Shown here: positions 1,157 through 40,277 of the stretch, one piece after another
Position numbering within the stretch: position 1 is the first letter of the stretch
Layout of the letters: every line of letters begins with the position of its first letter
NCBI GenBank assembly: GCA_030913685.1
Contig: CP133187.1
Span: forward strand, 372,001 to 436,000
From: Oscillospiraceae bacterium MB24-C1
GTDB lineage: Bacteria; Bacillota; Clostridia; Oscillospirales; Ruminococcaceae
DNA: 64,000 bases
Reading direction: 5' to 3'
Notes under the pieces: model-generated
The model's input: the letters and a program-made list of their open reading frames with translations, nothing else
Databases searched by the model: none
What the model was told of the DNA's origin: nothing
Made by a program: the position numbers and the translations under genes

Positions 1157-2830
1157 ATGAGCTATTTATCCGATATTGAAATTGCGCAGGCGTGCAGTAT
1201 GAAACGCATTGGGGAGATTGCGGATACTGCAGGGGTTGCGGAGGACTATCTTGAGCTTTACGGTAAGCACAAAGCGAAGGTAGATTATAAGTTACTTGAA
1301 GAGGTTAAAAAACCGGATGGCAAATTGATTTTGGTGACCGCCATAAACCCCACCCCGGCGGGTGAAGGTAAGACCACCACCACCATAGGACTGGCCGACG
1401 GGCTGCGTAAAATCGGTAAAAACGCGGTGGTTGCACTGCGTGAGCCGTCTTTGGGACCGGTGTTCGGTGTCAAGGGCGGCGCTGCGGGTGGCGGTTACGC
1501 ACAGGTGGTGCCGATGGAGGACATCAACCTGCATTTTACCGGCGATTTTCATGCCATAGGTGCTGCAAACAACTTGATTGCAGCCATGCTCGACAACCAT
1601 ATCTATCAGGGCAACACGCTGAATATTGACCCCAGACGCATCACCTGGCGGCGGTGTGTCGATATGAATGACCGCCAGCTGCGCAACGTGATAGACGGTC
1701 TTGGCGGGCGGGTAAATGGCTGCCCAAGAGAGGACGGATATGATATTACCGTTGCCTCTGAGATCATGGCGGTACTGTGTCTGTCAAACGACATCGGTGA
1801 TCTCAAGCAGCGCCTTGCCCGTGTCATTGTGGGTTATACCTATGCAGACGAGCCTGTGACGGTTGGTGATTTAAAGGCGGCGGGTGCGGCCGCAGCGCTT
1901 TTGAAAGATGCGCTCAAACCCAACCTGGTGCAGACGCTGGAGGGCACACCCGCTTTTATTCATGGCGGGCCGTTTGCTAACATTGCGCATGGCTGCAACT
2001 CGGTTATGGCCACTAAAATGGCACTACGCCTGAGCGACTATGCTGTCACCGAGGCGGGATTTGGTGCTGATCTGGGTGCTGAAAAATTCCTCGATATCAA
2101 ATGCCGCATGTCGGGGTTGACGCCTTCGGCGGTGGTCGTTGTGGCGACTGTGCGCGCCTTAAAGCATCATGGCGGCGTACCGAAGGCGACGCTCAACAAC
2201 GAAAATCTGTCTGCCCTGAGCGAGGGGTTGCCTAATCTGCTGCGCCATGTTGCCAATATCACGGCGGTTTATGGCTTGCCCTGTATCGTTGCTATCAACC
2301 GGTTCCCGACCGACAGTGAGGCCGAGCTGGCGCTGGTGGCTGAAAAATGCCACGCCGTCGGCGTGAATGTTGCGCTCTCAGAGGTTTGGGGCAAGGGCGG
2401 GGAAGGCGGCGTAACACTGGCGCGTGAGGTTGTCCGCCTGTGCGAACAGCCGTCACAGTTTACCTTTGCCTATGAGGATGATTTGAGCATCGAGCAGAAA
2501 ATAGAAAGCATTGTCAAAAAAGTTTATCGCGGCGATGGTGTTGTTCTCACCCCCAACGCGAAAAAACAGGCGAAAAAGCTCACTGAGTTGGGCTTTGATG
2601 CGCTTCCGGTCTGTATGGCAAAAACGCAGTACAGCTTTTCGGATAACCCAGCTTTGCTGGGCGCACCGAGTGGCTTTTTGATCACGGTAAAAAATTTAAA
2701 GATTTCTGCCGGCGCGGGCTTTATTGTTGCGCTGACAGGTGATATAATGACCATGCCGGGGTTGCCGCCCGTGCCTGCCGCAGAGAAAATCGACGTTGAT
2801 GATTCGGGCAGAATCTCGGGGTTGTTTTAA
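1157..2830 (+). CDS. fhs: Formate-tetrahydrofolate ligase
   Basis: This cytosolic enzyme joins formate to tetrahydrofolate using ATP, giving 10-formyl-THF, and runs in reverse to make ATP during purine or histidine fermentation. The 557-residue length is normal. The nucleotide-binding loop [10 protein letters not shown] is near residues 66-75, followed by the conserved [11 protein letters not shown] and [11 protein letters not shown] blocks. The ATG at 1157 is preceded by GGGAGG. It lies upstream of the riboswitch-controlled folT, so both serve folate one-carbon metabolism. In this genome it probably also receives the carbon released by FtcD and FchA at the other end of the window (inference). 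Confidence 0.97.
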
Positions 2831-2893
2831 CCTCATATCCTATTAAGGCATAAACAAGGCGGCGCGGTGCCCGTGCGGCTTTGTCGAAAATAT

Positions 2894-2985
2894 GCAGAGT
2901 AGAAACAGCGCGTCAAGTGTCGGTGGATGGGAAGTTGCCGCCGAACGAAGGGTAAAAACCCGCGGTGCTGTTTCGCGTCCGCTGC
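2894..2985 (+). promoter_or_regulatory. Tetrahydrofolate riboswitch (THF-I class)
   Basis: Sequence and fold match the THF-I aptamer. The closing stem P1 is GCAG at 2894-2897 with CTGC at 2982-2985. The AGAGTAG strand follows. P2 is AAACAGC at 2903-2909 with GCTGTTT at 2967-2973. The core segments GATGGGAAG and ACGAAG are present at 2925-2933 and 2944-2950, P3 is CGGTGG/CCGCCG, and a short GGGT/ACCC hairpin lies at 2950-2961. It stands about 90 nt before the folT start, the classic target of this riboswitch. Folate sufficiency should reduce folT expression. Confidence 0.93.
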
Positions 2986-3072
2986 CATCTGAAGAAGTTC
3001 TCTTCATGTGGCCCCACCATGCGCCTGTCTGAAAGCGCTTTTCAAACGGGCTGTTACGAGGAGGCAAACATC

Positions 3073-3582
3073 ATGAGATCCAAATCCGCTTTTAAGATTG
3101 CAAACATCGCGTTGCTGATTGCTCTGGAAATTGTACTTTCCCGGTTTCTGTCTATCAGCACACCAATTGTTAAAATCAGCTTTTCGTTTGTACCACTTTC
3201 AATGTTGGCCATGCTCTATGGGCCGTTTTACGCGGCCGCAGGTGCGGCGATTGCCGATATTATTGGCGTCGCGCTTTTCCCGCTGGGGGCCTATTTCCCA
3301 GGGTATACCCTGACAGCGGCGCTGACAGGGCTGACCTATGGACTATTGCTTTATCAAAAGCCAAAGTCGTGGGGGCGTATTGTTTTAGCGGTGCTGATTG
3401 TCGGCCTGGTGCTCAATCTCGGGCTTAACACCGTCTGGATTCAGATGACCACCGGCAAGGCTTATATGGCGCTTTTAGTGCCGCGAATTGTCAAGTCCCT
3501 GACCATGGTGCCAATTATGGTGCTGATAATCCGATTTGCATGGGAAAAGCTCTGCCCACTGGCGACAAAATTTGCCGAATAA
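3073..3582 (+). CDS. folT: Folate ECF transporter substrate-binding subunit FolT
   Basis: This is a small integral membrane protein of the energy-coupling-factor transporter family: 169 residues with about six hydrophobic helices. It binds folate and works with a shared EcfT/EcfA module encoded elsewhere. The frame is open further upstream, but ATG 3073 has the strong ribosome-binding site GAGGAGG at 3058-3064, and the upstream part is riboswitch leader. The THF riboswitch directly upstream is the main evidence for folate as substrate. A strong terminator follows, so folT is the last gene of its transcript. Confidence 0.9.
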   Translation: MRSKSAFKIANIALLIALEIVLSRFLSISTPIVKISFSFVPLSMLAMLYGPFYAAAGAAIADIIGVALFPLGAYFPGYTLTAALTGLTYGLLLYQKPKSWGRIVLAVLIVGLVLNLGLNTVWIQMTTGKAYMALLVPRIVKSLTMVPIMVLIIRFAWEKLCPLATKFAE

Positions 3583-3592
3583 CTTTAATGTG

Positions 3593-30073: not shown

Positions 30074-30280
30074 TTATGCCCAAAACCAATTCGGAACATA
30101 TATAATCTCATGCCCAAAAAGCAAAAAAGACGCCGATTTGTCGCCTCAATAGCTGAAAATATCTAAAAACAACCGTAAACAACGCGTACTAATTGAAAAT
30201 TAGTATCATACTATGATGGGTTTATTACGTAGATATGCGTTGATTATCACACAATTAATATAGCTCTGAAGTGTCAATTA

Positions 30281-30364
30281 TGGGCGGCGGAAGAACCGCC
30301 GCCCACTAGAGAATAACATAATAGTATAATAAGGGCGCTTACAGCTTGACCGCTGTAAGCGCCC
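30281..30364. other. Two perfect hairpins in a gene-free stretch
   Basis: The stretch from 30074 to 30428 has no gene I can support. It holds a 10-bp perfect hairpin (TGGGCGGCGG arm, 30281-30305) and a 13-bp perfect hairpin (GGGCGCTTACAGC arm, 30333-30364). Neither has a long T run, so they may be weak terminators of leftward or rightward transcripts in the element. Confidence 0.55.
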
Positions 30365-30428
30365 GAAACGTTTCTAAAAGCCTCTTAAATATATATTATT
30401 CTATAAATAATTTTGAGGAGGCTTAAAA

Positions 30429-30736
30429 TTGGATGAAAGCACAATCACCGCGATCATGGCGACATATGTCCGGTTGAATCGTCACCCTCTAATAATCCAG
30501 CTTATGCCAATGCCACATTAAAAATAATTTCTGCCATTCATGAGTTGGAAGACGTCATTCCGTCCGACAAGCATTATCTATTGGAGCAGTTGCAGGAGTG
30601 GTATAGTGAGCAAAACATGATAGAGCTTGAAGCCGCCTTTGAACAGGGGTTCCGGCTTGGGGCTCAATTAATGATGGCAATACAGGAAAGCGATATCTCT
30701 GTCGAAATTATTGCAGGGGAAAAAGATGGGAGATGA
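30429..30736 (+). pseudogene. DUF6809-like small phage/element gene, frameshifted
   Basis: A good GAGGAGG site precedes a TTG at 30429 whose frame (DESTITAIMATYVRLN) stops early at about 30521. A different frame continues the protein from about 30475 (VESSPSNNPAYANATL) through 30736. The second part has the family-like ending with acidic helices and FEQGFRLGAQLMMAIQE. I read one gene of about 100 codons broken by a frameshift near 30465-30480. The family likeness is from memory of DUF6809 proteins common in clostridial phages and integrated elements. Function unknown. Confidence 0.6.
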
Positions 30737-30778
30737 TTTAATAAACTATAAACAGTACTATTGCTGTTTATAAAAATT

Positions 30779-30824
30779 GCGCTGGCGTTTACAGCTTTAT
30801 GGCTGCAAACGCCAGCGCCGTTTT
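30779..30824 (+). terminator. Long hairpin terminator after the DUF6809-like gene
   Basis: A 17-bp stem with one mismatch (30779-30795 with 30802-30818) and the tail CGTTTTC. Its core GGCGTTTACAGC is close to that of the hairpin at 30333-30364. Confidence 0.75.
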
Positions 30825-30861
30825 CATATTACCCGATAACTATAAAAAATGAGGTGGTAAA

Positions 30862-31224
30862 ATGATTGAAGTCCAAACATGGTCGGATGCTCTAGAATTG
30901 GAAAAGCAGATCGATAATGATTTGTATATTTATATTACAGCACGCTTTCGCACTCTTCATCAGAGCTATTGCGCCTCCGAAAAAATCTGCCGGTCGCTTT
31001 CAGAATTCAGCTTGGCAGATTACGGCGCAATAGTTCTGGTTCAATCGTACGAAGAGCTTAAGCCTCTGATAATTGAAACAGCATGGATACAGTCTTTAAA
31101 GGACTATGATCTCTTCGTTGCATTGGTACCGGTCAATAACAGCACTTGTAAAGAATATTTAATTCCACACGCGCTCATGACGCCAAAGCAAATAGGAGCA
31201 TTTAAAGAGGAGTACTGTTTATGA
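30862..31224 (+). CDS. Hypothetical protein of the integrated element
   Basis: 120 residues, soluble, acidic, no motif I recognise. The ATG follows GAGGTGG. Its last 4 nt overlap the DUF1643-like gene, so the two are co-translated and probably act together. Real coding is supported by the ribosome-binding site, the overlap and normal amino-acid use. Confidence 0.7.
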   Translation: MIEVQTWSDALELEKQIDNDLYIYITARFRTLHQSYCASEKICRSLSEFSLADYGAIVLVQSYEELKPLIIETAWIQSLKDYDLFVALVPVNNSTCKEYLIPHALMTPKQIGAFKEEYCL

Positions 31225-31733
31225 TTATCCAAAAGGCTTCGATTAAAAATGAGGCTATTTATTCTGATGATAAGACGCACTTATATCTAATACGCAGGGT
31301 GTGGGAGGCTAATCAGCCGTCAGCAGCAATTATTATGCTGTCACCGTCATCCGTTGCCAACGTCATTGCGACTGATATGAGCGGTATGTATATACTCCAG
31401 AATTGTTGTAAGCTGGGGATTGGTTCGGTGTCTATCATGAATCTGTATTCTCAACTTAAAGGCGGTATTTACGGCACAAACGGTGAGAACGATCTCATTA
31501 TTAATAAGTCATGCAAAGACTGCGATAAGATCATTTTAGCCTATGGTACCGGTTGCCAGACTAAACAGGTGGTAAAGCGGATAGGGGAGCTCTATCTGCT
31601 TCTAAAACCCTATGCCCAAAAGCTTTATCAAATTGCTTCCGAGGATGGCGTCGGATATCATCCTCTTGGCGCGGCTGTGCGCCATCGGTGGATATTAAAG
31701 CCCTTTACACTTCCGCAGGACAATGCCGGTTAG
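31221..31733 (+). CDS. DUF1643-like protein
   Basis: 170 residues resembling the DUF1643 family: an early YLIRRVWEANQPSAAIIMLSP-type strand with the family's Pro-Ser turn, then SVSIMNLYSQLKGGIYG, a nucleotide-fold-like central part with IILAYGTGC, and the C-terminal HPLGAAVRHRW. Members are scattered in phages and integrative elements and have no established function. It overlaps the gene before it by 4 nt. Confidence 0.7.
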   Translation: MIIQKASIKNEAIYSDDKTHLYLIRRVWEANQPSAAIIMLSPSSVANVIATDMSGMYILQNCCKLGIGSVSIMNLYSQLKGGIYGTNGENDLIINKSCKDCDKIILAYGTGCQTKQVVKRIGELYLLLKPYAQKLYQIASEDGVGYHPLGAAVRHRWILKPFTLPQDNAG

Positions 31734-31841
31734 ATCATGCTCCAATAGCCAATGGAATTTTCTAAGAAAAAGTTCAGGCAACTGGACGCAAGAAAGTTCA
31801 ATGCGAAGGCGCTATAATCACACCATTGGGAGGGGATGGTA

Positions 31842-32132
31842 ATGGCTGAGGAGTTAATTGCGGAACAGTTGAACGGCTTCTATCGAGATATTGCGTCGGA
31901 CATGGACGTGGAAATTGCTGTCCAGATGTATGAGCATTATAAGGGTTTACAGGTTGTTTTTCCTACAAAGCTGCTGGACAGCAAGTTTATACAAACTCAG
32001 ATTCTAAAGGAGTATGATGGCAAAAATTATAAACATATCGCTTTAAAGTACGGTTATAGCGAAAGGTGGGTGCGGAAAATCATTAAGAGTAGGACAATAA
32101 AAATGAATGAGGAGGATTTAAAGTATGTTTAG
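31842..32132 (+). CDS. Mor-family transcriptional activator
   Basis: 96 residues like the Mor (middle operon regulator) family of Mu-like phages: an N-terminal dimerisation part and a C-terminal helix-turn-helix (KEYDGKNYKHIALKYGYSERWVRKIIK). ATG 31842 is favoured over ATG 31836 because GGGAGGGG ends at 31835. It probably activates genes of the element. It overlaps the following gene by 8 nt. Confidence 0.78.
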   Translation: MAEELIAEQLNGFYRDIASDMDVEIAVQMYEHYKGLQVVFPTKLLDSKFIQTQILKEYDGKNYKHIALKYGYSERWVRKIIKSRTIKMNEEDLKYV

Positions 32133-32493
32133 CGACCCTGCATATCTGAGTAAAACAATCACCGTCAATAATCCGGCTGCCCTTAACGACGCACTTGATA
32201 GCGAATATGGCGCTGTAGTCGCCGTTGGGGATGCCGCACAAAGTCTTCGGGAATCCATTAAAAAATATGCTGGTAACCGAAAGCTTTCAAAATTGAGCAA
32301 TATGGTGTTTCTTTTGACGCCGTTTAATCCACTGCTTTTTATTTCGCTGGGGATTATCGGCAAGTTCCTGACAAGCGATAAGGTGAGCAAATACCGTGTG
32401 AATATTGGGGGAACAGACTTCGTTCTTCTAATACATAAACAAGCGGCACTCACCGAAAGCCAGAAAAAGGAGCTTGAAGCATTGGCACATTGA
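32125..32493 (+). CDS. Hypothetical protein with one hydrophobic segment
   Basis: 122 residues, not recognised. A hydrophobic stretch near residues 70-87 (LLTPFNPLLFISLGIIG) could be a membrane helix. The ribosome-binding site GAGGAGG lies inside the end of the Mor-like gene, so the two are coupled. A terminator follows. Confidence 0.6.
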   Translation: MFSDPAYLSKTITVNNPAALNDALDSEYGAVVAVGDAAQSLRESIKKYAGNRKLSKLSNMVFLLTPFNPLLFISLGIIGKFLTSDKVSKYRVNIGGTDFVLLIHKQAALTESQKKELEALAH

Positions 32494-32521
32494 GCGGATG
32501 CATACAAAATAATAATAAAAT

Positions 32522-32558
32522 GACCCGATAAAGCAGAGATCATCGCTTTGTCGGGTCG
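32522..32558 (+). terminator. Terminator after the Mor-like operon
   Basis: GACCCGATAAAGC pairs with GCTTTGTCGGGTC (one G-T pair) around a 10-nt loop, followed by GTTATAATT. Confidence 0.75.
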
Positions 32559-32581
32559 TTATAATTAGTGGAGGGAAATTC

Positions 32582-32662
32582 ATGAACGTCTATTTGATCG
32601 GTTTCTTTGGCACGTTAATTATTCTGTGTTGCTTTGATTATTGTCTGAGCAAGGCGTTTTAA
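32582..32662 (+). CDS. Small hydrophobic peptide (26 aa)
   Basis: A short frame starts at ATG 32582 behind GGAGGGAAA. Most of it is hydrophobic (about residues 4-19, with LIGFFGTLIILCC), so it would form one membrane helix. It is followed 16 nt later by a second small frame. Function unknown; holin-like or toxin-like roles are only guesses. Confidence 0.45.
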   Translation: MNVYLIGFFGTLIILCCFDYCLSKAF

Positions 32663-32678
32663 AAAAGGGGGACTGTGA

Positions 32679-32789
32679 ATGAACGAAAAGCTACTGGATC
32701 TTTTTGTGGCTGGGGTATCGCTGGCACTCACTGTTTATCAAACAGCGCTGGCTACCGTTAAGGAACAGGCCAACAAACATAAGATATAA
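32679..32789 (+). CDS. Small amphipathic peptide (36 aa)
   Basis: ATG 32679 follows AAGGGGGAC. The peptide has a hydrophobic middle (LLDLFVAGVSLALTVYQTAL) and a basic tail. It forms a pair with the peptide gene before it. No family recognised. Confidence 0.45.
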   Translation: MNEKLLDLFVAGVSLALTVYQTALATVKEQANKHKI

Positions 32790-32801
32790 TTATATATGTG
32801 T

Positions 32802-32873
32802 GTGCCAACGGGCGGGAATCACGTGGTTTTTGGAAAATCCACAGGTTCAACCTGATCTTTCTCGCCCCGGCAC
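32802..32873 (+). ncRNA. Candidate structured RNA with three-way junction
   Basis: In the 389 nt between the small peptides and the DUF927 gene, GTGCC (32802-32806) pairs with GGCAC (32869-32873) and GGGCGGGA (32810-32817) pairs with TCTCGCCC (32860-32867). Inside are two hairpins, GTGG...CCAC (32823-32842) and AGGTT/AACCT (32843-32853). This is a compact branched fold with strong GC pairing in AT-rich surroundings. I match it to no known family. It may also be a replication or transfer origin of the element. Confidence 0.45.
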
Positions 32874-33178
32874 CTTCGTGTAATCGTCCCGAATCCCCGT
32901 GACACTAAAAAATTTTTGTGCACTTTTTTTATCAATTATCGATTTTTTGAATGTGGAAAGAGATTTCAATATTCGTCATGCCCAAAATGACAGGAATCTG
33001 CGTAAAAAACTGCGAACTTTGAGCGGTAGGATAAAAATGGCGGATTTTTAAAGCATCGCCGTAAAAGCGCGTTTTTCGATGTCCCTTGTTCAATTCACTA
33101 AAAATGAAAAAATGGCTTGATAATCAGGAAAATATGGTATAAAATCTCCTTGCTACCTTTAAAGGAGGTTTTATATAT

Positions 33179-34839
33179 ATGAAAACTAATGAAATTAACC
33201 CAGCAGATTACCCGTATTATCCCTATTACCCATATCCTGAAAATGGGTTGGTCTACCGTTACGTAAAGAAAAAAGATACAGATGAGCAATCCTGGCTGCC
33301 GCTGTGCAGATATGTGGAAGTAAGTAAGAAGTTGGTTAACTTGCATTAGGACACTGAGCTTTTGGAGTTGACGATGCAAACGAACGACCCGAATCGCCTT
33401 AAGAAGATTGTTATCAGCCGAGGTGACTTGACAGCCAAACGCTATGATGTTTTGGCTGATAAGGGCGTGGACATCACAGACAAAAATTATAAGGACGTGT
33501 TGGCGTACCTCTTGAAGACGGAAAAAGATGCGCCGGTGGACTATCGACATGAAAAATTGGGGTGGGATTTAGAGAATCAGAACCATTACATATTTTATCA
33601 CCACAAGTTGCTCGGTGAGGGTGTACCAAGCAATCATACCGATGCCACTGCGCTTGCACCTACTGGTACGTTGTCGGCTTGGGTCAACATGGTGAAGGAA
33701 GAGGTTCTTGGGCAGACCGCGATGGAGCTCGTTTTGGCGGCAGGCTTTTCAGCTATGCTGGTGCCAAGGCTTCAGGAGGTCAGTAGCCACAAAGCTTTAT
33801 TTATCCATATGGTCGGTAATTCAAGTGTTGGAAAAACCACGGCAGAGAAGCTGGCGCTATCCGCATTCGCCCACCCTGAGTGCGAACGTCTATTCAAACA
33901 ATGGGTTAATACGAAGAATGCACTCTTTGGAGCACTGATGGAAATTTCGGGTTTCCAATTGTGATTGATGAGAGCGAAGAGTCTAATCTATCCGATTTCA
34001 CTGGCACGATTTACAACATCAGCCAGGGCAAGGGCAAAGAGCGTGCTAAACCTGACGGAGGGGTAAGGCGCGCCGGTAGATGGAACTGCACATTAATATC
34101 ATCGGGTGAGTCGAAATTGCCTCGCAATAACAATGTTGGCTTATCGTTTCGCCTGATCGAAATCTGCGACGCTACTTTTACCCGCTCGGCAGAAAATTCT
34201 CATAGAATTAAGCGTGTGATTCAGAAAAACTATGGACATCCTTCGATTGAGATGGCAGAGTACCTGCTTGCATTACCCGATGATGCACTGTTTGCAGACT
34301 ATGACGCTTGTAAAGAACAGCTGTTGGGGATAATACCCTCGAACCATTATGCCGCAAGGGCCGTAAATGTGCTGGCAATCATTGTTCTTGCAGCTCATTA
34401 TGCCAATCACGTATTAGCTCTTGGGCTTAATATTGCGGCTATCGAGGAGATGCTTGCTAAACTAGATTCTCAGCAGAAACGGGACATCGGTATGGAGGCG
34501 CTTGAAATGCTGTACCAATACACGGTAACTCATAACAGCCAGTTTCAAGATTCAAAAGGTAATAACTATAATCCAATGTATACTACAAATGCGATTGGTA
34601 CTTATAAGTCTATTGGAGACAATGTCGAAATTGCGGTTTTGAAATCTGAGTTGCCCAAAATACTCAGCCAAGCCAACTTCAGCAGCACTGAGGTGATTCT
34701 GTCATCATGGAAGCAGTCGGGCATTTTAGATTGTGAGCGGGATCGTTACACTCGTACCAGAAAAATCAATAATTTGAAGGTTCCAATGTATGTTGTCAAG
34801 TTTAAACAAACTCTTTTTATGAGTGAAAATTGTGCATAA
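33179..34839 (+). pseudogene. DUF927 ATPase/helicase-like gene, broken by a stop codon and a frameshift
   Basis: The reading frame starts at ATG 33179 behind a perfect AAAGGAGG, runs 56 codons to an in-frame TAG (33347-33349), and continues in the same frame from 33350 to 33964 with the Walker A motif GNSSVGKTT. At about 33955 the frame shifts: adding one base to the T run restores GFPIVIDESEE, and the rest of the family (GTIYNISQGKGKER, then the STGE-like ISSGESK) runs on to 34839. DUF927 proteins are primase-helicase-like replication proteins of phages and integrative elements. With two lesions the gene is very likely dead. Confidence 0.82.
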
Positions 34840-34997
34840 TACTGAAAATAATGTCTGAAAAGCCTACCATCACGTTTCTAAAAAGGCATTTGAGGCAATT
34901 GCGAGAGCATTTTCCGATTACGCGCCTATGGGTTAGTACGACATTTGCAAAAAGCCTTGGTGCCTCATAAATGACAGCATATAGCAAAAATCCGCTA

Positions 34998-35051
34998 TGC
35001 AAATGCAACAAAAAACATCAATGGGAGAAATTTGCCAATGTTTTATTTGCA
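34998..35051. promoter_or_regulatory. Inverted repeat upstream of the excisionase gene
   Basis: TGCAAAT at 34998-35004 with ATTTGCA at 35045-35051, and inside these AAAACAT with ATGTTTT, flank a 20-nt centre. It could be an operator for xis-int or an accessory recombination site. No gene is seen from 34840 to 35105. Confidence 0.35.
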
Positions 35052-35105
35052 TGATATTATAGCGCAAAAGGGTAACCACCCTAATTAATTTAAGGAGCGT
35101 ACGAT

Positions 35106-35306
35106 ATGAATTGTTCGCATGAAAATAGAAAGCTAGAAGACCTACCTGAAATCTTAACCGCACGAATGATCGCTGACTACCTTGATATCGGATATACCAA
35201 GGCGCTGCATCTAATCCAATATGAGGGCATTCAGCACCTTAAGCTGGGTTCGACCTACCGCGTTCCCAAGCAGCACTTTGTGAAGTGGCTTGGACTTGAA
35301 AGCTGA
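35106..35306 (+). CDS. Excisionase-type helix-turn-helix protein
   Basis: 66 residues with a MerR/HTH_17-like winged helix (LTARMIADYLDIGYTKALHLIQ, then a basic wing LGSTYRVPKQHF). The ATG follows AAGGAGCG. It lies 74 nt before the integrase gene in the usual xis-int order, so it probably directs excision or regulates the integrase. Confidence 0.82.
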   Translation: MNCSHENRKLEDLPEILTARMIADYLDIGYTKALHLIQYEGIQHLKLGSTYRVPKQHFVKWLGLES

Positions 35307-35380
35307 AATGGTCGCTTATGGAAGAGGAAAGCCCGGTGTTTTGCCGGGCTATGTTTTTCAATCGAAAGGAAGAGATAATT

Positions 35381-36520
35381 ATGACAGGTCACGTTAGGAA
35401 ACGCAAAACTAAAAATGGCACATCTTGGCAGGTTGTTCTGGATAAGGGTGTCGATGTTAACGGAAAGCGCATAAGAGAATACATCACTGTAAAGGGCAAC
35501 AAAGGGCAGGCGCAAGATGAGCTTGCCAAGAGAATTTCGGAATACAACAGCGGCAGCTACATAGCACCGTCGAAAATGACGGTACAAATGCTCATTGACC
35601 AATGGCTTACGGTCTATGCCGTGCCACAACTAGCGCCCAGCACAGTTCGCGGTTATAAAGTAAACTTTGATAAACATACAATTCCCTATATCGGACATAT
35701 CTTGGTTCAGAAGCTGACCGGCATAGAGATACAGCACATGTATACGCAGTTGTCACAAATCGGATTATCACCACGCAGTGTTCGCTACGTTCACACAACC
35801 TTGCGCGAAGTACTGCAATATGCCTACAAGACACGACTGATATCCCTTAATCCAGCTGATTTTGTGAGTGCGCCAAAGCAGGGAAAATATAAAGCCGAGG
35901 TCTACAACACCGATGAGGTGGCTAAATTACTCAGTTGCGCCAAAGGGACTGATATGGAAATACCTCTCATGGTTGATTTAGAGACTGGCTTGAGACGTGG
36001 TGAGCTATTAGCGTTAAAATGGTCAGATATCAACTGGGACGAACAAACGATAACTATATACCGCAATCTGGTGTGCATCAATGGTGAGCATAAATTTGGT
36101 AGTCCTAAGACGAAATCGGGCAACCGTAAGTTGTTGTTATCGGAATCATTGATTGAGAAGTTAAGACAACACCGAGTCAGACAGAATAAGATTAGGCTGC
36201 AATTAGGTTCAACATACAAAAATAATGACTTGATCTGTTGTCGGGATGACGGCAGCCCTTATCACACTGGTAGCTTTTCTCACAAATTTGCCAACTTTTT
36301 GAAAAAACATGGGCTGAAACACATTCGACTGCATGACATTAGGCATACCAATGCAACGATGATGCTGGAGAATGGCATTCCCGCAAAGATTGCCTCTGAA
36401 CGGCTAGGGCATTCCGGCATTGCAATCACATTGGACACCTATTCTCATGTTTCACCCAAAATGCAAAAGGATGCTGTTGAAAAACTTTCAGGCGAGATAT
36501 TCCTACCGGAAGCGGAATAA
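35381..36520 (+). CDS. int: Tyrosine recombinase (phage/ICE-type integrase)
   Basis: Catalyses site-specific integration and excision of the element. ATG 35381 is chosen over an in-frame start at 35318 for its AAAGGAAGAG site. The 379 residues carry an N-terminal arm-site-binding domain (about 1-50), a SAM-like core-binding domain (about 60-160) and a complete catalytic set: R205 (TGLRRGE), H318-x-x-R321, H344 (LGHSG) and Y354. It appears intact although other genes of the element are broken. The nearby tRNA-Ser is a plausible target. Confidence 0.93.
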   Translation: MTGHVRKRKTKNGTSWQVVLDKGVDVNGKRIREYITVKGNKGQAQDELAKRISEYNSGSYIAPSKMTVQMLIDQWLTVYAVPQLAPSTVRGYKVNFDKHTIPYIGHILVQKLTGIEIQHMYTQLSQIGLSPRSVRYVHTTLREVLQYAYKTRLISLNPADFVSAPKQGKYKAEVYNTDEVAKLLSCAKGTDMEIPLMVDLETGLRRGELLALKWSDINWDEQTITIYRNLVCINGEHKFGSPKTKSGNRKLLLSESLIEKLRQHRVRQNKIRLQLGSTYKNNDLICCRDDGSPYHTGSFSHKFANFLKKHGLKHIRLHDIRHTNATMMLENGIPAKIASERLGHSGIAITLDTYSHVSPKMQKDAVEKLSGEIFLPEAE

Positions 36521-36545
36521 TTAACGAACGAGCCACCCATATACA

Positions 36546-36590
36546 CATAATCTCTACACAGCTAAATGCTTGTAAAGATTATGTTTTTTC
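36546..36590 (+). terminator. Terminator after the integrase gene
   Basis: CATAATCTCTACA pairs with TGTAAAGATTATG (one mispair), followed by TTTTTTCTTTT. Confidence 0.85.
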
Positions 36591-36692
36591 TTTTATAGGG
36601 GTTTTTTACGACGTTTGATGCTGAAAAATAATGATTGCTATATTGCTGTAGTATGTGGTAGTATCGTAAAAATAACTTCCGGGGGTATTATC

Positions 36693-37010
36693 ATGGATCA
36701 ATTTCAGAATGCCACAATTGTTAAAAGAGCAAATGTTTACTATGACGGCAAGGTGACCAGCCGAACCATTTATCTGGCTGACGGCACACGCAAAACGCTG
36801 GGCATCATTATGCCCGGTGAATACGAGTTTGGCACAGCGGCGAAAGAAAAGATGGAGGTATTAGCTGGAACGCTGAATGCTCTGCTCCCCGGTAGCGAAA
36901 CATGGGTGGCCTATGGTGAAGGTCAAATGTTTGAGGTGCCAGCGAGCAGTAAATTCAAGGTCTCTACCGACATCGTGGTTGATTATTGCTGCTGTTATAT
37001 TGAGGAATAA
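36693..37010 (+). CDS. ppnP: Pyrimidine/purine nucleoside phosphorylase (PpnP, cupin family)
   Basis: A small cupin enzyme that splits nucleosides with phosphate. ATG 36693 is used because GGGGG at 36682-36686 precedes it; the longer frame from 36615 has no site. About 105 residues match the family: ANVYYDGKVTSRTI, GTRKTLGIIMPGEYEFGTAAKE, LPGSETWVAYGEGQMFEVP. It stands alone between the integrase and the polysaccharide cluster, so it may be cargo or a resident gene. Confidence 0.88.
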   Translation: MDQFQNATIVKRANVYYDGKVTSRTIYLADGTRKTLGIIMPGEYEFGTAAKEKMEVLAGTLNALLPGSETWVAYGEGQMFEVPASSKFKVSTDIVVDYCCCYIEE

Positions 37011-37040
37011 TTGACTACCAACGTAATAGAGAACAATAAA

Positions 37041-37083
37041 AATTACGCTAAGGCCTAATGCAAAGCCATGGCGTAATTTTTTT
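37041..37083 (+). terminator. Terminator after ppnP
   Basis: AATTACGC pairs with GCGTAATT, with inner AGGC/GCC pairing, flanked by A and T runs. Confidence 0.78.
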
Positions 37084-37155
37084 GCTACTAGAGTGATAGA
37101 TAAGAAAAAAGGGCTTGAATAGTAATTGTTTGTTGTTACTACAAGTTGCCCACCA

Positions 37156-37282
37156 TTGACCATCAATCGACCACTATTATCAGTTGCAAATTTTATAAAT
37201 ACGTACACCATATTGACAATAGATGGAAATAATGCTAATATGAACAAGGTTTTAATAAACAATTGACTACTATTGACCACTT
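37156..37282 (+). repeat. Direct repeats of a TTGACYAC motif around the polysaccharide promoter
   Basis: Near-identical 10-mers occur as two tandem pairs: TTGACCATCA (37156) with TCGACCACTA (37167), and TTGACTACTA (37263) with TTGACCACTT (37273). A further copy, TTGACTACCA, is at 37011. One pair lies before the promoter and the other between promoter and ribosome-binding site. They look like binding sites of one protein, possibly arm-type recombinase sites or operators. Confidence 0.6.
37213..37241 (+). promoter_or_regulatory. Promoter of the polysaccharide operon
   Basis: TTGACA (37213-37218) and TAATAT (37236-37241) are 17 nt apart; transcription should start near 37248. Direct repeats lie on both sides. 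Confidence 0.85.
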
Positions 37283-37294
37283 AAGGAGTGCTCC

Positions 37295-37924
37295 ATGAAA
37301 ACGGGTGCTAATATTCGACTAAGAAGCGACGGGCGCTTTGAAGCGCGGTACGAAAAAGGCAGAACTCCGGACGGCAAAATTGTGTATGGATATTGCTATG
37401 CCAAGACCCGTTCAGAGGCTGAAGAAAAGAAAAATAAAGCTCTAGCGACATTGTCAAAACAGTCCCATGCGAAGCAGATGAATCTGCTGATTTTAGGTGC
37501 AGGCGGTCAGGGGCAAGTGGTTAAAGAACTTGCGCAAGACGTCAGAGTGTTTAAGAAAATCGCTTTTTTGGACGATGATCCGCTCAATCCCCATACGATG
37601 GATACTTGCGATAACTGTTGGAAGTATTTAGATGAATACCCAATTGCGATCCCATCTGTTGGTAACAATGCACTACGCCAAAAGTGGATTGGAATGCTGG
37701 TGCAATATGGTTTTATTCTGCCGACGCTGATACATAGTACTGCAACTGTCTCCCCTAGTGCCGAGATCGGCTATGGTACGGTAGTGGAGGCGAAGGTTAC
37801 GATTAGTGCAAACGCTAAAATCGGCGTGGGGTGCATTATCAGTAGCGGCGCAATCATCGAACGTAATGTAACAATACAAGATTGGACGCATATTGAATGC
37901 GGCAGAACAGTAAGAAAAGAATAA
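37295..37924 (+). CDS. Integrase-type DNA-binding domain fused to PglD/NeuD-type sugar acetyltransferase
   Basis: 209 residues in two parts. Residues 1-50 (ANIRLRSDGRFEARYEKG, then GYCYAKTRSEAEEKK) are the small DNA-binding domain found at the start of phage and Tn916-type integrases, comparable to the first 50 residues of the integrase at 35381. From M62 on (MNLLILGAGGQGQVVKELA) it is a PglD/NeuD-like acetyltransferase with a nucleotide-sugar domain and a left-handed beta-helix, shorter than usual at its end. The AAGGAG site belongs to ATG 37295; M62 has none, so the fusion is what is translated. It heads the polysaccharide operon. Confidence 0.82.
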   Translation: MKTGANIRLRSDGRFEARYEKGRTPDGKIVYGYCYAKTRSEAEEKKNKALATLSKQSHAKQMNLLILGAGGQGQVVKELAQDVRVFKKIAFLDDDPLNPHTMDTCDNCWKYLDEYPIAIPSVGNNALRQKWIGMLVQYGFILPTLIHSTATVSPSAEIGYGTVVEAKVTISANAKIGVGCIISSGAIIERNVTIQDWTHIECGRTVRKE

Positions 37925-37952: not shown

Positions 37953-38573
37953 ATGTCTTATATGCGGCTTAAACGTGTAATTGATATTCTGTTATCCTTA
38001 TTGGGAATAGTTGTTTTAGCACCGGTATTTTTAGTTTTAGTTATTGCAATTAAGCTTGATTCGCCGGGGCCAATTCTTTTCAAGCAAACGAGAGTGGGTA
38101 TACATAAAAGCCACTTTAATATTCTTAAATTCCGCACTATGCGTATTGATACGCCAAAAGATATGCCGACGCATTTGCTAGAAGATCCGGAACAGTGGAT
38201 AACGAGAGTCGGTAAATTTCTGAGAAAAACAAGCTTAGATGAACTGCCGCAGATTTGGAATATCTTCATAGGCGAAATGAGCATTATTGGCCCCAGACCG
38301 GCACTTTGGAATCAATACGATTTGATTGAAGAGCGGGACAAATATGGTGCCAATGATGTCCCGGTAGGCTTGACTGGCTGGGCGCAAATTAATGGTAGAG
38401 ACGAACTGCCGATAGAAGTCAAAGCTAGACTTGATGGTGAATACGTCGAACGGATGAGTATTGTGTTTGACTGCCGCTGTTTTATAGGTACGGTACTGGC
38501 TGTGCTTAAACACGATGGCGTTGTAGAGGGTGGGACAGGTGAATTGCGAAAAAGGGAGTCGGTTGTAAAATGA
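37953..38573 (+). CDS. Initiating sugar-phosphate transferase (undecaprenyl-phosphate)
   Basis: A membrane enzyme of the bacterial sugar transferase family (PglC/WcaJ C-terminal type) that places the first sugar phosphate on undecaprenyl phosphate. It has 206 residues with one N-terminal membrane helix (about 13-35), then SPGPILFKQTRVG, FKFRTM-like LKFRTMRID, RKTSLDELPQIWN and GPRP. The neighbour acetyltransferase suggests a bacillosamine-like or other amino sugar (inference). It overlaps the next gene by 4 nt. Confidence 0.93.
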   Translation: MSYMRLKRVIDILLSLLGIVVLAPVFLVLVIAIKLDSPGPILFKQTRVGIHKSHFNILKFRTMRIDTPKDMPTHLLEDPEQWITRVGKFLRKTSLDELPQIWNIFIGEMSIIGPRPALWNQYDLIEERDKYGANDVPVGLTGWAQINGRDELPIEVKARLDGEYVERMSIVFDCRCFIGTVLAVLKHDGVVEGGTGELRKRESVVK

Positions 38574-39451
38574 AACGTATTTTAATTACCGGCGCCAATA
38601 GCTATGTGGGAACTTCTTTTGAGAATTATGTTAAGCAGTGGCCGGATAAATATCAGGTTGATACTATTAGCATCCATGGCGATGGATGGCGCAAGAAGAA
38701 TTTTAGTCAGTATGATTCAATTTTCCATGTAGCGGGTATTGCACACTCTGATACAGGACATGCATCGCAAGAGACAAGAGCAAGATACTATCGTGTTAAT
38801 ACTAATTTGACAATAGAGGTGGCTACAAAGGCTAAAAATGACGGCGCAAAACAGTTTATTTTTATGAGCAGCATTATAGTTTATGGTGATAGTGCACCTA
38901 TAGGCAAGAATAAGGTTATCACTAAAGATACTGTTCCATGTCCATCTAATTTTTACGGTGACAGTAAATTACAGGCCGAAAATGGTATTTTGCCGCTAAA
39001 TGATGAGCGATTTCATGTCGCAATTATTCGAGCGCCAATGATTTACGGTAAAGGTTGCAAAGGAAATTATCAGACGCTCGTAAAGGTTGCGTTGAAAATG
39101 CCGTTTTTTCCATATGTAAAGAATCAGCGTTCCATGCTGTATATTGAAAATCTCTGTGAGTTTGTCCGGCTGATGGTGACAAACAATGACCAAGGCCTTT
39201 TCTGGCCGCAGAATGCAGAGTACAGCAATACATCAGAGATGGTTAAAATGGTTGCCGAAGCGCACGGCAGGAAAATAAGACTTGCTAGGGGCACTGGTTG
39301 GATGTTGGAACTAGCAGGATGCTTTACTAGAATTATACATAAAGCCTTTGGTAGTATGAGTTATGTTATGACGATTAGCGAATATAGGATTAACTACAGA
39401 GAATATACACTATCCTCCTCTGTTAAGAAAATGGAGATTGATAATGGCTGA
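38570..39451 (+). CDS. NAD-dependent epimerase/dehydratase family protein
   Basis: 293 residues, extended short-chain dehydrogenase fold. The Rossmann motif is ITGANSYVGTSF (about 5-16), and the catalytic tyrosine-lysine pair is in FYGDSKLQAE. It probably changes a nucleotide sugar, or a lipid-linked sugar together with the initiating transferase. The exact reaction is not clear. It overlaps its neighbours on both sides. Confidence 0.88.
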   Translation: MKRILITGANSYVGTSFENYVKQWPDKYQVDTISIHGDGWRKKNFSQYDSIFHVAGIAHSDTGHASQETRARYYRVNTNLTIEVATKAKNDGAKQFIFMSSIIVYGDSAPIGKNKVITKDTVPCPSNFYGDSKLQAENGILPLNDERFHVAIIRAPMIYGKGCKGNYQTLVKVALKMPFFPYVKNQRSMLYIENLCEFVRLMVTNNDQGLFWPQNAEYSNTSEMVKMVAEAHGRKIRLARGTGWMLELAGCFTRIIHKAFGSMSYVMTISEYRINYREYTLSSSVKKMEIDNG

Positions 39452-40277
39452 TGTTACAATTTTGATATTGACAAAAAATGAAGAAGTAAATTTGCCGGAT
39501 TGTCTAAAATCTTTAAACGGTTTTGCTACACGCGTAGTTGTGTTGGACAGCGGAAGTACAGACCGCACAACGCAAATTGCGAGGGAATGGGGAGCGGATG
39601 TATATATACATCCTTTTGAAAATTATGCAAGACAGTTTAACTGGGGATTGGACAACGTAAATATCACAACAAAATGGACTTTTCGTCTTGATGCCGACGA
39701 AAGGCTTACAATCGACCTCCGTAGCGAATTGGAGCAGCTAATGGCTGATCATTTTGATGATGATGTCAATGGTATAACCATGGAAGCGTGGTTATATTTT
39801 ATGGATCGTAAAATCAAGCATGGGTGTCGCAATAAACGAAAGCTTATGCTTTTTAAAACAGGAATTGGTCGGATAGAGGACCGCAATATGGATGAGCATA
39901 CTATACTAAGTAATGGCACGTCAGTATATGCAAAAAATAGGTTTATACATTATGATTTCAAAAATTTGACACACTGGATAGATAAAATGAACTGGTATGC
40001 AACTCGGGAAGTGCAAGATTATTACGAGTTTAAAAATGGAAAATCAGCGGAAATAATTGTTAAGGATGCAGCAATATCGAGTACAAGAAATAAGAAATTT
40101 GGGGTGTATTATCGCTTCCCCTTGTTTTTACGGTGTTGGCTTCTTTTTATATATAATTATATTTTCAAACTTGGCTTTTTGGATGGTAAGGAAGGCTTTA
40201 TATACCACTATATGTATCATCAATGGTATCGAACGCTTGTAGATGCTAAAATTTATGAGCAACAGAACGTAAAGTGA
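39444..40277 (+). CDS. Family 2 glycosyltransferase (WaaE/KdtX-like)
   Basis: 277 residues. ATG 39444 is preferred to the in-frame TTG 39438 because GGAGA precedes it. The GT-A fold shows ILTKNEEVNLPDCLKSL, VVLDSGSTDRT and the DxD-like LDADERL. It adds a sugar to the lipid-linked repeat unit on the cytoplasmic side. A gene-free stretch of 187 nt follows, with no clear signal. Confidence 0.9.
   Translation: MADVTILILTKNEEVNLPDCLKSLNGFATRVVVLDSGSTDRTTQIAREWGADVYIHPFENYARQFNWGLDNVNITTKWTFRLDADERLTIDLRSELEQLMADHFDDDVNGITMEAWLYFMDRKIKHGCRNKRKLMLFKTGIGRIEDRNMDEHTILSNGTSVYAKNRFIHYDFKNLTHWIDKMNWYATREVQDYYEFKNGKSAEIIVKDAAISSTRNKKFGVYYRFPLFLRCWLLFIYNYIFKLGFLDGKEGFIYHYMYHQWYRTLVDAKIYEQQNVK

Follow-up and report, generated by a model that had tools for sequence, protein, structure and literature searches.

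Tyrosine recombinases of the Tn916/Tn1549 type carry an N-terminal arm-binding domain, and such domains recognise accessory arm sites close to the recombination sites (accessible part of PMC8138268). An akin N-terminal domain begins the protein described here, which is encoded in a 64,000-nucleotide stretch of DNA from Oscillospiraceae bacterium MB24-C1 (the window). Unlike these integrases, the window protein has neither a catalytic nor a core-binding domain, and in longer members of its family the catalytic domain lacks three active-site residues. Its remainder finds its best sequence and fold matches in PglD/NeuD/PglB-type N-acetyltransferases (4m98, 3bss, VioB, PerB), with which it has PglD_N and hexapeptide parts in common, but it differs from them in the missing catalytic His, the short C-terminus and the fusion to a DNA-binding-type domain. 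On balance, we favour the reading that the fusion is a one-component autoregulator, in which a recombinase-derived part would bind DNA and a pseudo-acetyltransferase would act as the sensor.

Rex-family redox repressors, which have a winged helix and sense NADH, likewise combine a DNA-binding part and a Rossmann-like sensor in a single chain and may be the nearest working analogue. The fold search reached them from rank 7 through the Rossmann part (E 0.005 and above), but the fusion has an AP2-integrase-like domain instead of the winged helix, and we claim no common descent. As an evolutionary precedent, the nearest would be the eukaryotic domestication of DNA-binding domains of mobile elements (accessible part of PMC3537659); the DNA-binding parts of such elements became transcription regulators of the AP2/ALOG type in plants and of the crypton-derived type in fungi (accessible parts of PMC3537659 and PMC3212892). 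Those regulators are eukaryotic and, in the same parts of these sources, appear with no metabolic-enzyme partner, whereas the present fusion is bacterial and heads a biosynthetic operon. If the favoured reading is true, the fusion would be a bacterial counterpart of that domestication and a small example of a recombinase and a metabolic enzyme both turned into regulator parts, and it would suggest how the often exchanged polysaccharide operons of these bacteria are kept controlled, with the regulator riding at their head and reading a pathway intermediate. To our knowledge, the control of surface polysaccharides in this bacterial group is poorly known.

A reading of the window made earlier from the sequence alone (the sequence-only reading) had described the gene as a fusion of two domains, and this description stands: the open reading frame is present (Table 1), its 209-residue product matches PglD_N, and residues 1-50 are integrase-like. 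In Pfam, PglD_N was matched at residues 63-134 (E 1.3e-10, 42.1 bits against a cutoff of 23.4) and Hexapep at residues 168-200 with a score slightly below its cutoff (26.7 against 27 bits). The NCBIfam model TIGR03570 gave 101.4 bits, missing its cutoff of 160.8, and only positions 1-149 of the 202 in the profile were covered, the C-terminus being short. Among solved structures, the PglD-like part has its best relatives in Neisseria PglB (4m98, acetyltransferase domain, E 8e-19) and in the PglD-type acetyltransferases 3bss, 2npo and 2vhe.

Table 1. Features at the head of the polysaccharide operon (positions in the window)
Feature	Positions	Strand	Basis or remark
Fifth copy of the repeat, TTGACTAC, directly after the PpnP stop	37010..37019	+	L054 has ACTAATTACC, 7/10, GAC core lost
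Inverted repeat (17-nt arms, 88% complementary), then T run	37038..37081	+	between PpnP and the fusion promoter
Repeat U1, ATTGACCATC (TTGACCAT from 37156)	37155..37164	+	9/10 identical in L054
Repeat U2, ATCGACCACT (TCGACCAC from 37167)	37166..37175	+	7/10 identical in L054
Promoter-like TTGACA-17-TAATAT, TG before -10	37213..37241	+	both hexamers identical in L054
Repeat D1, ATTGACTACT (TTGACTAC from 37263)	37262..37271	+	8/10 identical in L054; 107 bp from U1
Repeat D2, ATTGACCACT (TTGACCAC from 37273)	37272..37281	+	9/10 identical in L054; 106 bp from U2; adjoins ribosome-binding site
Ribosome-binding site AAGGAG	37283..37288	+	read from sequence
Fusion gene, integrase arm-binding-type domain + PglD/NeuD-like domain	37295..37924	+	ORF, Pfam, homologues
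Arm-binding-type (AP2-integrase-like) domain, residues 1-50, predicted beta-beta-beta-alpha	37295..37444	+	integrase N-terminus matches, model
PglD_N Rossmann-like part + short hexapeptide part, residues 62-209	37478..37921	+	Pfam, structure relatives
Arg190 codon, at the PglD-family catalytic His position	37862..37864	+	alignment columns
Sugar transferase (Bac_transf), first polysaccharide gene	37953..38573	+	Pfam
NAD-dependent epimerase/dehydratase, glycosyltransferase family 2	38570..40277	+	Pfam

The N-terminal residues 1-50 are 37-64% identical to the N-termini of integrases in relatives, most of these integrases being about 370-400 aa long, and the domain is thereby related in sequence to integrase arm-binding domains. 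Searched alone, it matched no Pfam model, and no integrase was among its matches in sequence searches of the PDB. Its structural model has the bbba fold (mean pLDDT 86.6) and is weakly similar to the N-domain of Tn916 Int (1bb8; rmsd 2.2 across 47 residues at Z 3.9, in row 46 among mixed folds) and to the AtERF1 AP2 domain (1gcc; Z 5.2), with unrelated rows of similar Z around both; a Foldseek search of the PDB with the model returned nothing under E 0.001. In its PglD_N domain the window protein matches the PglD/NeuD family, and its DNA-binding-type domain and ligand-fold domain in a single chain have the layout of a one-component regulator, as judged by homology only.

Twelve fused genes were found, from nine genomes (the window's own included) and two MAG contigs, and they occur in three layouts. 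An arm domain, a degenerate recombinase catalytic domain and PglD are joined in L169, L168 and L208; arm domain and PglD alone in the window, L054 and L170; and degenerate catalytic domain and PglD in, for example, L055, L005, L087 and L089. The L151 gene is cut by a contig end and is a member by the tree only. The L054 protein, from a MAG labelled Neobacillus, is 86% identical to that of the window, and the L055 fusion lies on a 4.6-kb contig of a MAG labelled Parabacteroides (both labels may be wrong); the same scan of named genomes gave L056, a standalone PglD-like gene. One genome, G562, holds two fused copies (L169 and L168).

Counts of genomes with a fused gene are lower bounds for each search, and the genome sets overlap. 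The gene was recognised in 2 of 297 genomes (50 stretches inspected), in at least 4 of 394 (with the catalytic part as query, which is blind to the window's layout), in 3 of 250 in one search and 2 of 250 in another (G1287 by tree only), and in 2 of 216 in the search that gave L208. A class-wide search of 391 genomes returned the window's own gene only, among 30 loci inspected, and a phylum-wide one of 186 genomes no fused gene besides it; of the four same-genus genomes among the matches listed, none has the fusion gene. Viral contigs of IMG/VR yielded no fusion (12 loci with the N-domain query, none with an in-frame PglD-like domain), on plasmids no place covered 80% of either the window or the L087 protein, and phages, with the L087 protein as sole query, gave one partial match. 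In the open-access literature searched, no title or abstract was found to describe such a fusion, which does not by itself establish novelty.

In a tree of 127 PglD domains (12 fused and 115 standalone), the fused domains form one clade (support 100/96; recovered in 99% of the 200 bootstrap replicates, which at 0.986 were still short of full convergence). The window and L054 group with the catalytic-domain forms L087, L089 and L005 and with L151 (support 100/89), and L170, an arm-plus-PglD form on a long branch, sits among the three-domain forms (support 100/98), so that the arm-plus-PglD layout occurs in two supported groups. The simplest reading would be a three-domain ancestor from which domains were lost later.

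The His that we take to be catalytic in the PglD family is present in 114 of the 115 standalone domains and in 1 of the 12 fused ones (Fisher p 6e-14), a contrast that does not represent 12 independent losses because the fused rows form one clade. The window protein has Arg190 in this column, which makes the label 'acetyltransferase' doubtful; the earlier assignment to that group thus holds for the matched PglD/NeuD-like domain, with activity in question. In L168 a His lies one residue after the column, and the sole fused protein with the catalytic His is that of L090, whose gene looks broken. The glycines of LGAGxxG and the aspartates of FLDD are kept in all 12 fused proteins and in most standalone ones.

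Tyrosine recombinases use a catalytic set of Arg-I, His-II, Arg-II, His/Trp-III and Tyr. Arg-I, His-II and His/Trp-III are replaced in all seven fused recombinase domains tested and present in all five ordinary integrases, while Arg-II and a Tyr remain in all seven; the Lys column was left out of the comparison, the alignment being unreliable there. Against the Pfam Phage_integrase cutoff of 27.1 bits, L087 (27.8) and L089 (28.2) score above, L005 (25.2) and L055 (19.2) below, and L090 gives no match. The scores of L087 and L089 place the descent of the fused catalytic domain within the tyrosine recombinase superfamily, a test to which the window protein, having no such domain, is not subject. 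Neither the window protein, which lacks the domain, nor the seven fused domains, which lack the three residues, thus qualify as active tyrosine recombinases, and both borrowed catalysts, recombinase and PglD, look dead.

Both domains are under purifying selection, as measured on one pair of loci, the window and L054. Over the whole gene dN is 0.08 and dS about 1.04; residues 1-58 give dN 0.086 and dS 1.066, and residues 62-208 dN 0.076 and dS 1.024 (Nei-Gojobori; two other methods agree). Since dN/dS is alike in the two parts, the arm domain is selected as strongly as the rest. This conservation of the N-domain also speaks against a working sugar N-acetyltransferase with the integrase piece as an inert or protein-binding extension, to which we give very little weight: the PglD_N match is in its favour, as is the operon position, which by eye equals that of the standalone PglD-like genes that L153 and L152 have before a sugar transferase. 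The catalytic His position, however, is Arg in the window protein, and the His is gone in 11 of the 12 fused proteins. The same loss tells against the earlier picture of a metabolic enzyme that regulates its own operon and makes a pseudoenzyme sensor more likely than a metabolic enzyme.

Upstream of the fusion gene, the five repeat copies that had been reported were all found (Table 1). As an array of five they hold up in part: four copies are kept in L054, but the one near 37011 is poorly kept and is probably a chance occurrence outside the array. The four repeats are identical at 33 of 40 positions between the window and L054 and the promoter hexamers at 12 of 12, compared with 87 of 207 in the remaining spacer (gap columns scored as mismatches). 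Sets of four 10-column stretches drawn at random attain 33 identities in 169 of 20,000 draws, and the repeat footprint comes from a single alignment of a single pair of loci. Conservation extends to the terminator stretch (40/55), where the inverted repeat is a probable terminator, although it was not among the calls of the terminator scan. The promoter-like site between the repeat pairs draws its support from the 12 of 12 bases conserved in L054, because the promoter scan, with two sites against 1.5 in shuffles, is not above chance.

The geometry of the repeats is the same in the two loci to 1 bp, with the GAC at -137, -126, -30 and -20 from the start codon in the window and at -136, -125, -30 and -20 in L054. 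Spacing is 11 and 10 bp within the pairs and about 106 bp between them. The pairs flank the promoter, the upstream one about 40 bp before the -35 and the downstream one after the expected transcription start and ahead of the ribosome-binding site. With nine copies in the window, TTGACYAC exceeds its expectation of 2.34 (none of 100 shuffles has as many), and three of these copies lie within this 300-bp stretch; a looser 10-mer that allows one mismatch shows no window-wide excess (35 copies, 27.9 expected, 12/100 shuffles). The pair pattern TTGACYAYN{2,3}TNGACYA is found twice in the whole 2.95-Mb genome, both times at this promoter (backward control once); having been drawn from these two sites, it is informative only in its absence elsewhere in the genome. 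The longest direct repeat upstream of the window gene, 10 nt, is not exceptional (10/100 shuffles).

We propose that the fusion product is a transcriptional autoregulator of the polysaccharide operon headed by its own gene. The integrase-derived arm-binding domain would bind the tandem TTGACYAY pairs, and a multimer bridging both pairs would repress by looping, or repression would come from blocking the leader. The pairs are 106-107 bp apart, about ten helical turns, so that a multimer could bridge them, and the PglD family forms trimers. Autoregulation through DNA binding is the component that we regard as distinctly likely. The earlier idea that the fusion controls its own operon through the repeats, with binding predicted, gains from the homologues, from the purifying selection and from repeats that are kept in L054 and whose pair pattern lies nowhere else in the genome, but loses from repeats that do not clearly recur at most other members and are absent at related integrases.

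The PglD-like part would read a UDP-sugar or acetyl-CoA-type ligand, so that DNA binding would be set by the state of the pathway. With its catalytic residue lost but its nucleotide-fold motifs kept, this part is a candidate ligand reader; that it senses a ligand at all is, in our estimate, a nearly balanced matter, tilting slightly to the negative. An autorepressor of fixed strength, in which the PglD-like part would be a multimerisation scaffold without sensing, is unlikely: the lost His and short C-terminus (1-149 of 202 in TIGR03570) agree with it, and a trimeric form would suit tandem pairs, but nucleotide-fold motifs kept in 12 of 12 answer no obvious need in a mere scaffold. More tentatively than autoregulation itself, we suggest a class of regulators made from two dead enzymes, which would have replaced a standalone PglD once and then lost domains repeatedly, staying as a fixed head while genes were exchanged behind it; in it the recombinase part would recognise DNA and the pseudo-acetyltransferase would read the operon's nucleotide-sugar intermediate.

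The expectation that the same fusion would head polysaccharide loci in other genomes was borne out, since homologues exist and in 8 of the 12 loci (window, L054, L170, L169, L208, L087, L089 and L055) the fusion is followed by DegT aminotransferase and/or Bac_transf genes (Pfam). The L005 context ends at the contig edge, and that of L151 was read by eye. At L090 the fusion is followed by a piece that we take to be helicase-like; the names DUF927, DUF1643, HAD, helicase and kinase are presumed from translations. The L168 fusion has no polysaccharide genes beside it. This three-domain gene (1644-3005, +), the second copy in the genome of L169, may act in trans.

The DNA that the window has in common with L054 runs from 32937 to 37918 and ends in the fusion gene at its last codons; beyond it the gene content of the two differs, except for 68 matching bp within the Bac_transf genes. 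That homology ends at the end of the fusion indicates, for this one pair, that the head stays while the polysaccharide genes are exchanged. The sequence-only reading had also considered a recombination-driven swap of clusters: the history of the window and L054, a shared head followed by different polysaccharide genes, agrees with the swap in part, although a recombinase catalytic domain is missing from the window protein and looks dead in its relatives. Within the shared region, a DUF927-like gene occupies two overlapping frames at 33362-34839 of the window but a single 551-aa ORF in L054 (1867-3522). About 2.7 kb of the window (30229-32937), with a few small genes, interrupts DNA whose two sides are nearly contiguous in L054.

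Two genes upstream of the fusion lies an integrase gene (35318-36520) with all tested active-site residues present and a counterpart in L054. It could point to the fusion being an excisionase-like accessory factor for this integrase in cluster swapping, with the repeats as arm sites of an attachment region, as could the end of the window/L054 homology at the last codons of the fusion and a broken integrase adjoining L087. We nevertheless hold this to be improbable, as no integrase was seen by eye in the upstream flanks (about 1 to 7 kb) of L089, L168, L169, L170, L208 and L005, so that the constant integrase linkage of a recombination directionality factor is absent, and the repeats frame a promoter with no visible crossover site. 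A search of the own genome with the fusion N-domain, moreover, missed the neighbouring integrase, whose N-domain is therefore different.

An accidental fusion, the decaying relic of an integrase insertion, is the reading that we disfavour most and consider barely credible. Integrase genes adjoin some loci and some members look broken (L090, and L055 at its 5' end), but dN/dS is about 0.08 in both domains, one clade holds several layouts, and the promoter and repeats are conserved. The broken integrase beside the L087 fusion is at 2258-3586 (-), and the same genome carries, at L088 (3908-4225, -), a degenerate catalytic-domain remnant that lacks PglD.

Seven other loci were scored upstream with a matrix built from the window and L054 sites. 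The independent three-domain locus L169 scores high (top-three sum 1/300 shuffles, number of sites 3/300, best single site 25/300), one of its top three sites overlapping its -35, and L208 is borderline (top three 22/300, number of sites 55/300), its best site being its -35; none of L168, L170, L087, L089 and L005 stands out. Recurrence of TTGACYAC repeats upstream of relatives, as the sequence-only reading had anticipated, is therefore seen in L054, where they are kept, and perhaps in L169, but is not clear at most others. None of 20 integrase loci with a related N-domain has a nearby same-strand TTGACYA pair within 40 bp, which leaves the specificity of the arm domain without an anchor in the integrases.

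All nine loci with upstream sequence have a promoter-like site (at least 9/12) no further than 200 bp from the start, a count made with no shuffle control. The longest direct repeat is 13 nt at L005 (0/100 shuffles), 12 nt at L090 (1/100), 12 nt at L169 (4/200) and 9 nt at L208 (28/200), with shuffle ranks of 39, 38, 99 and 29 of 100 at L054, L087, L089 and L055 and of 89 and 199 of 200 at L168 and L170. Leader palindromes are strong at L208 and L089 (0/200 shuffles each), rank 7, 13, 36 and 76 of 200 at L170, L169, L005 and L054, and were not found at the window, L168 and L087. Members may differ in their site specificity, which autoregulation permits; alternatively, the signals at different members are unrelated to each other.

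The palindromes of L208 (2880-2910, -) and L089 (11946-11987, -) lie between the promoter-like site and the start and both contain ACTTCATGAC, although they come from two different families of bacteria; they are possible operators. An earlier ATG at 12010 of L089 would put its ACTTCATGAC palindrome inside the frame. Upstream of 1082 (-) in L005/L155, the exact 13-mer TTTGTTGTAGCTT occurs twice, 100 bp apart, with one copy in the promoter spacer and the other before the start codon.

PglD-like domains are also fused to a kinase, in proteins of about 550 aa (L006, L007, L018 and L026, and by frame length L008-L014 and others). The kinase partner in the first four presumably resembles a relative of aminoglycoside phosphotransferase/NahK. 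These fusions recur in the window's family and keep the catalytic His.
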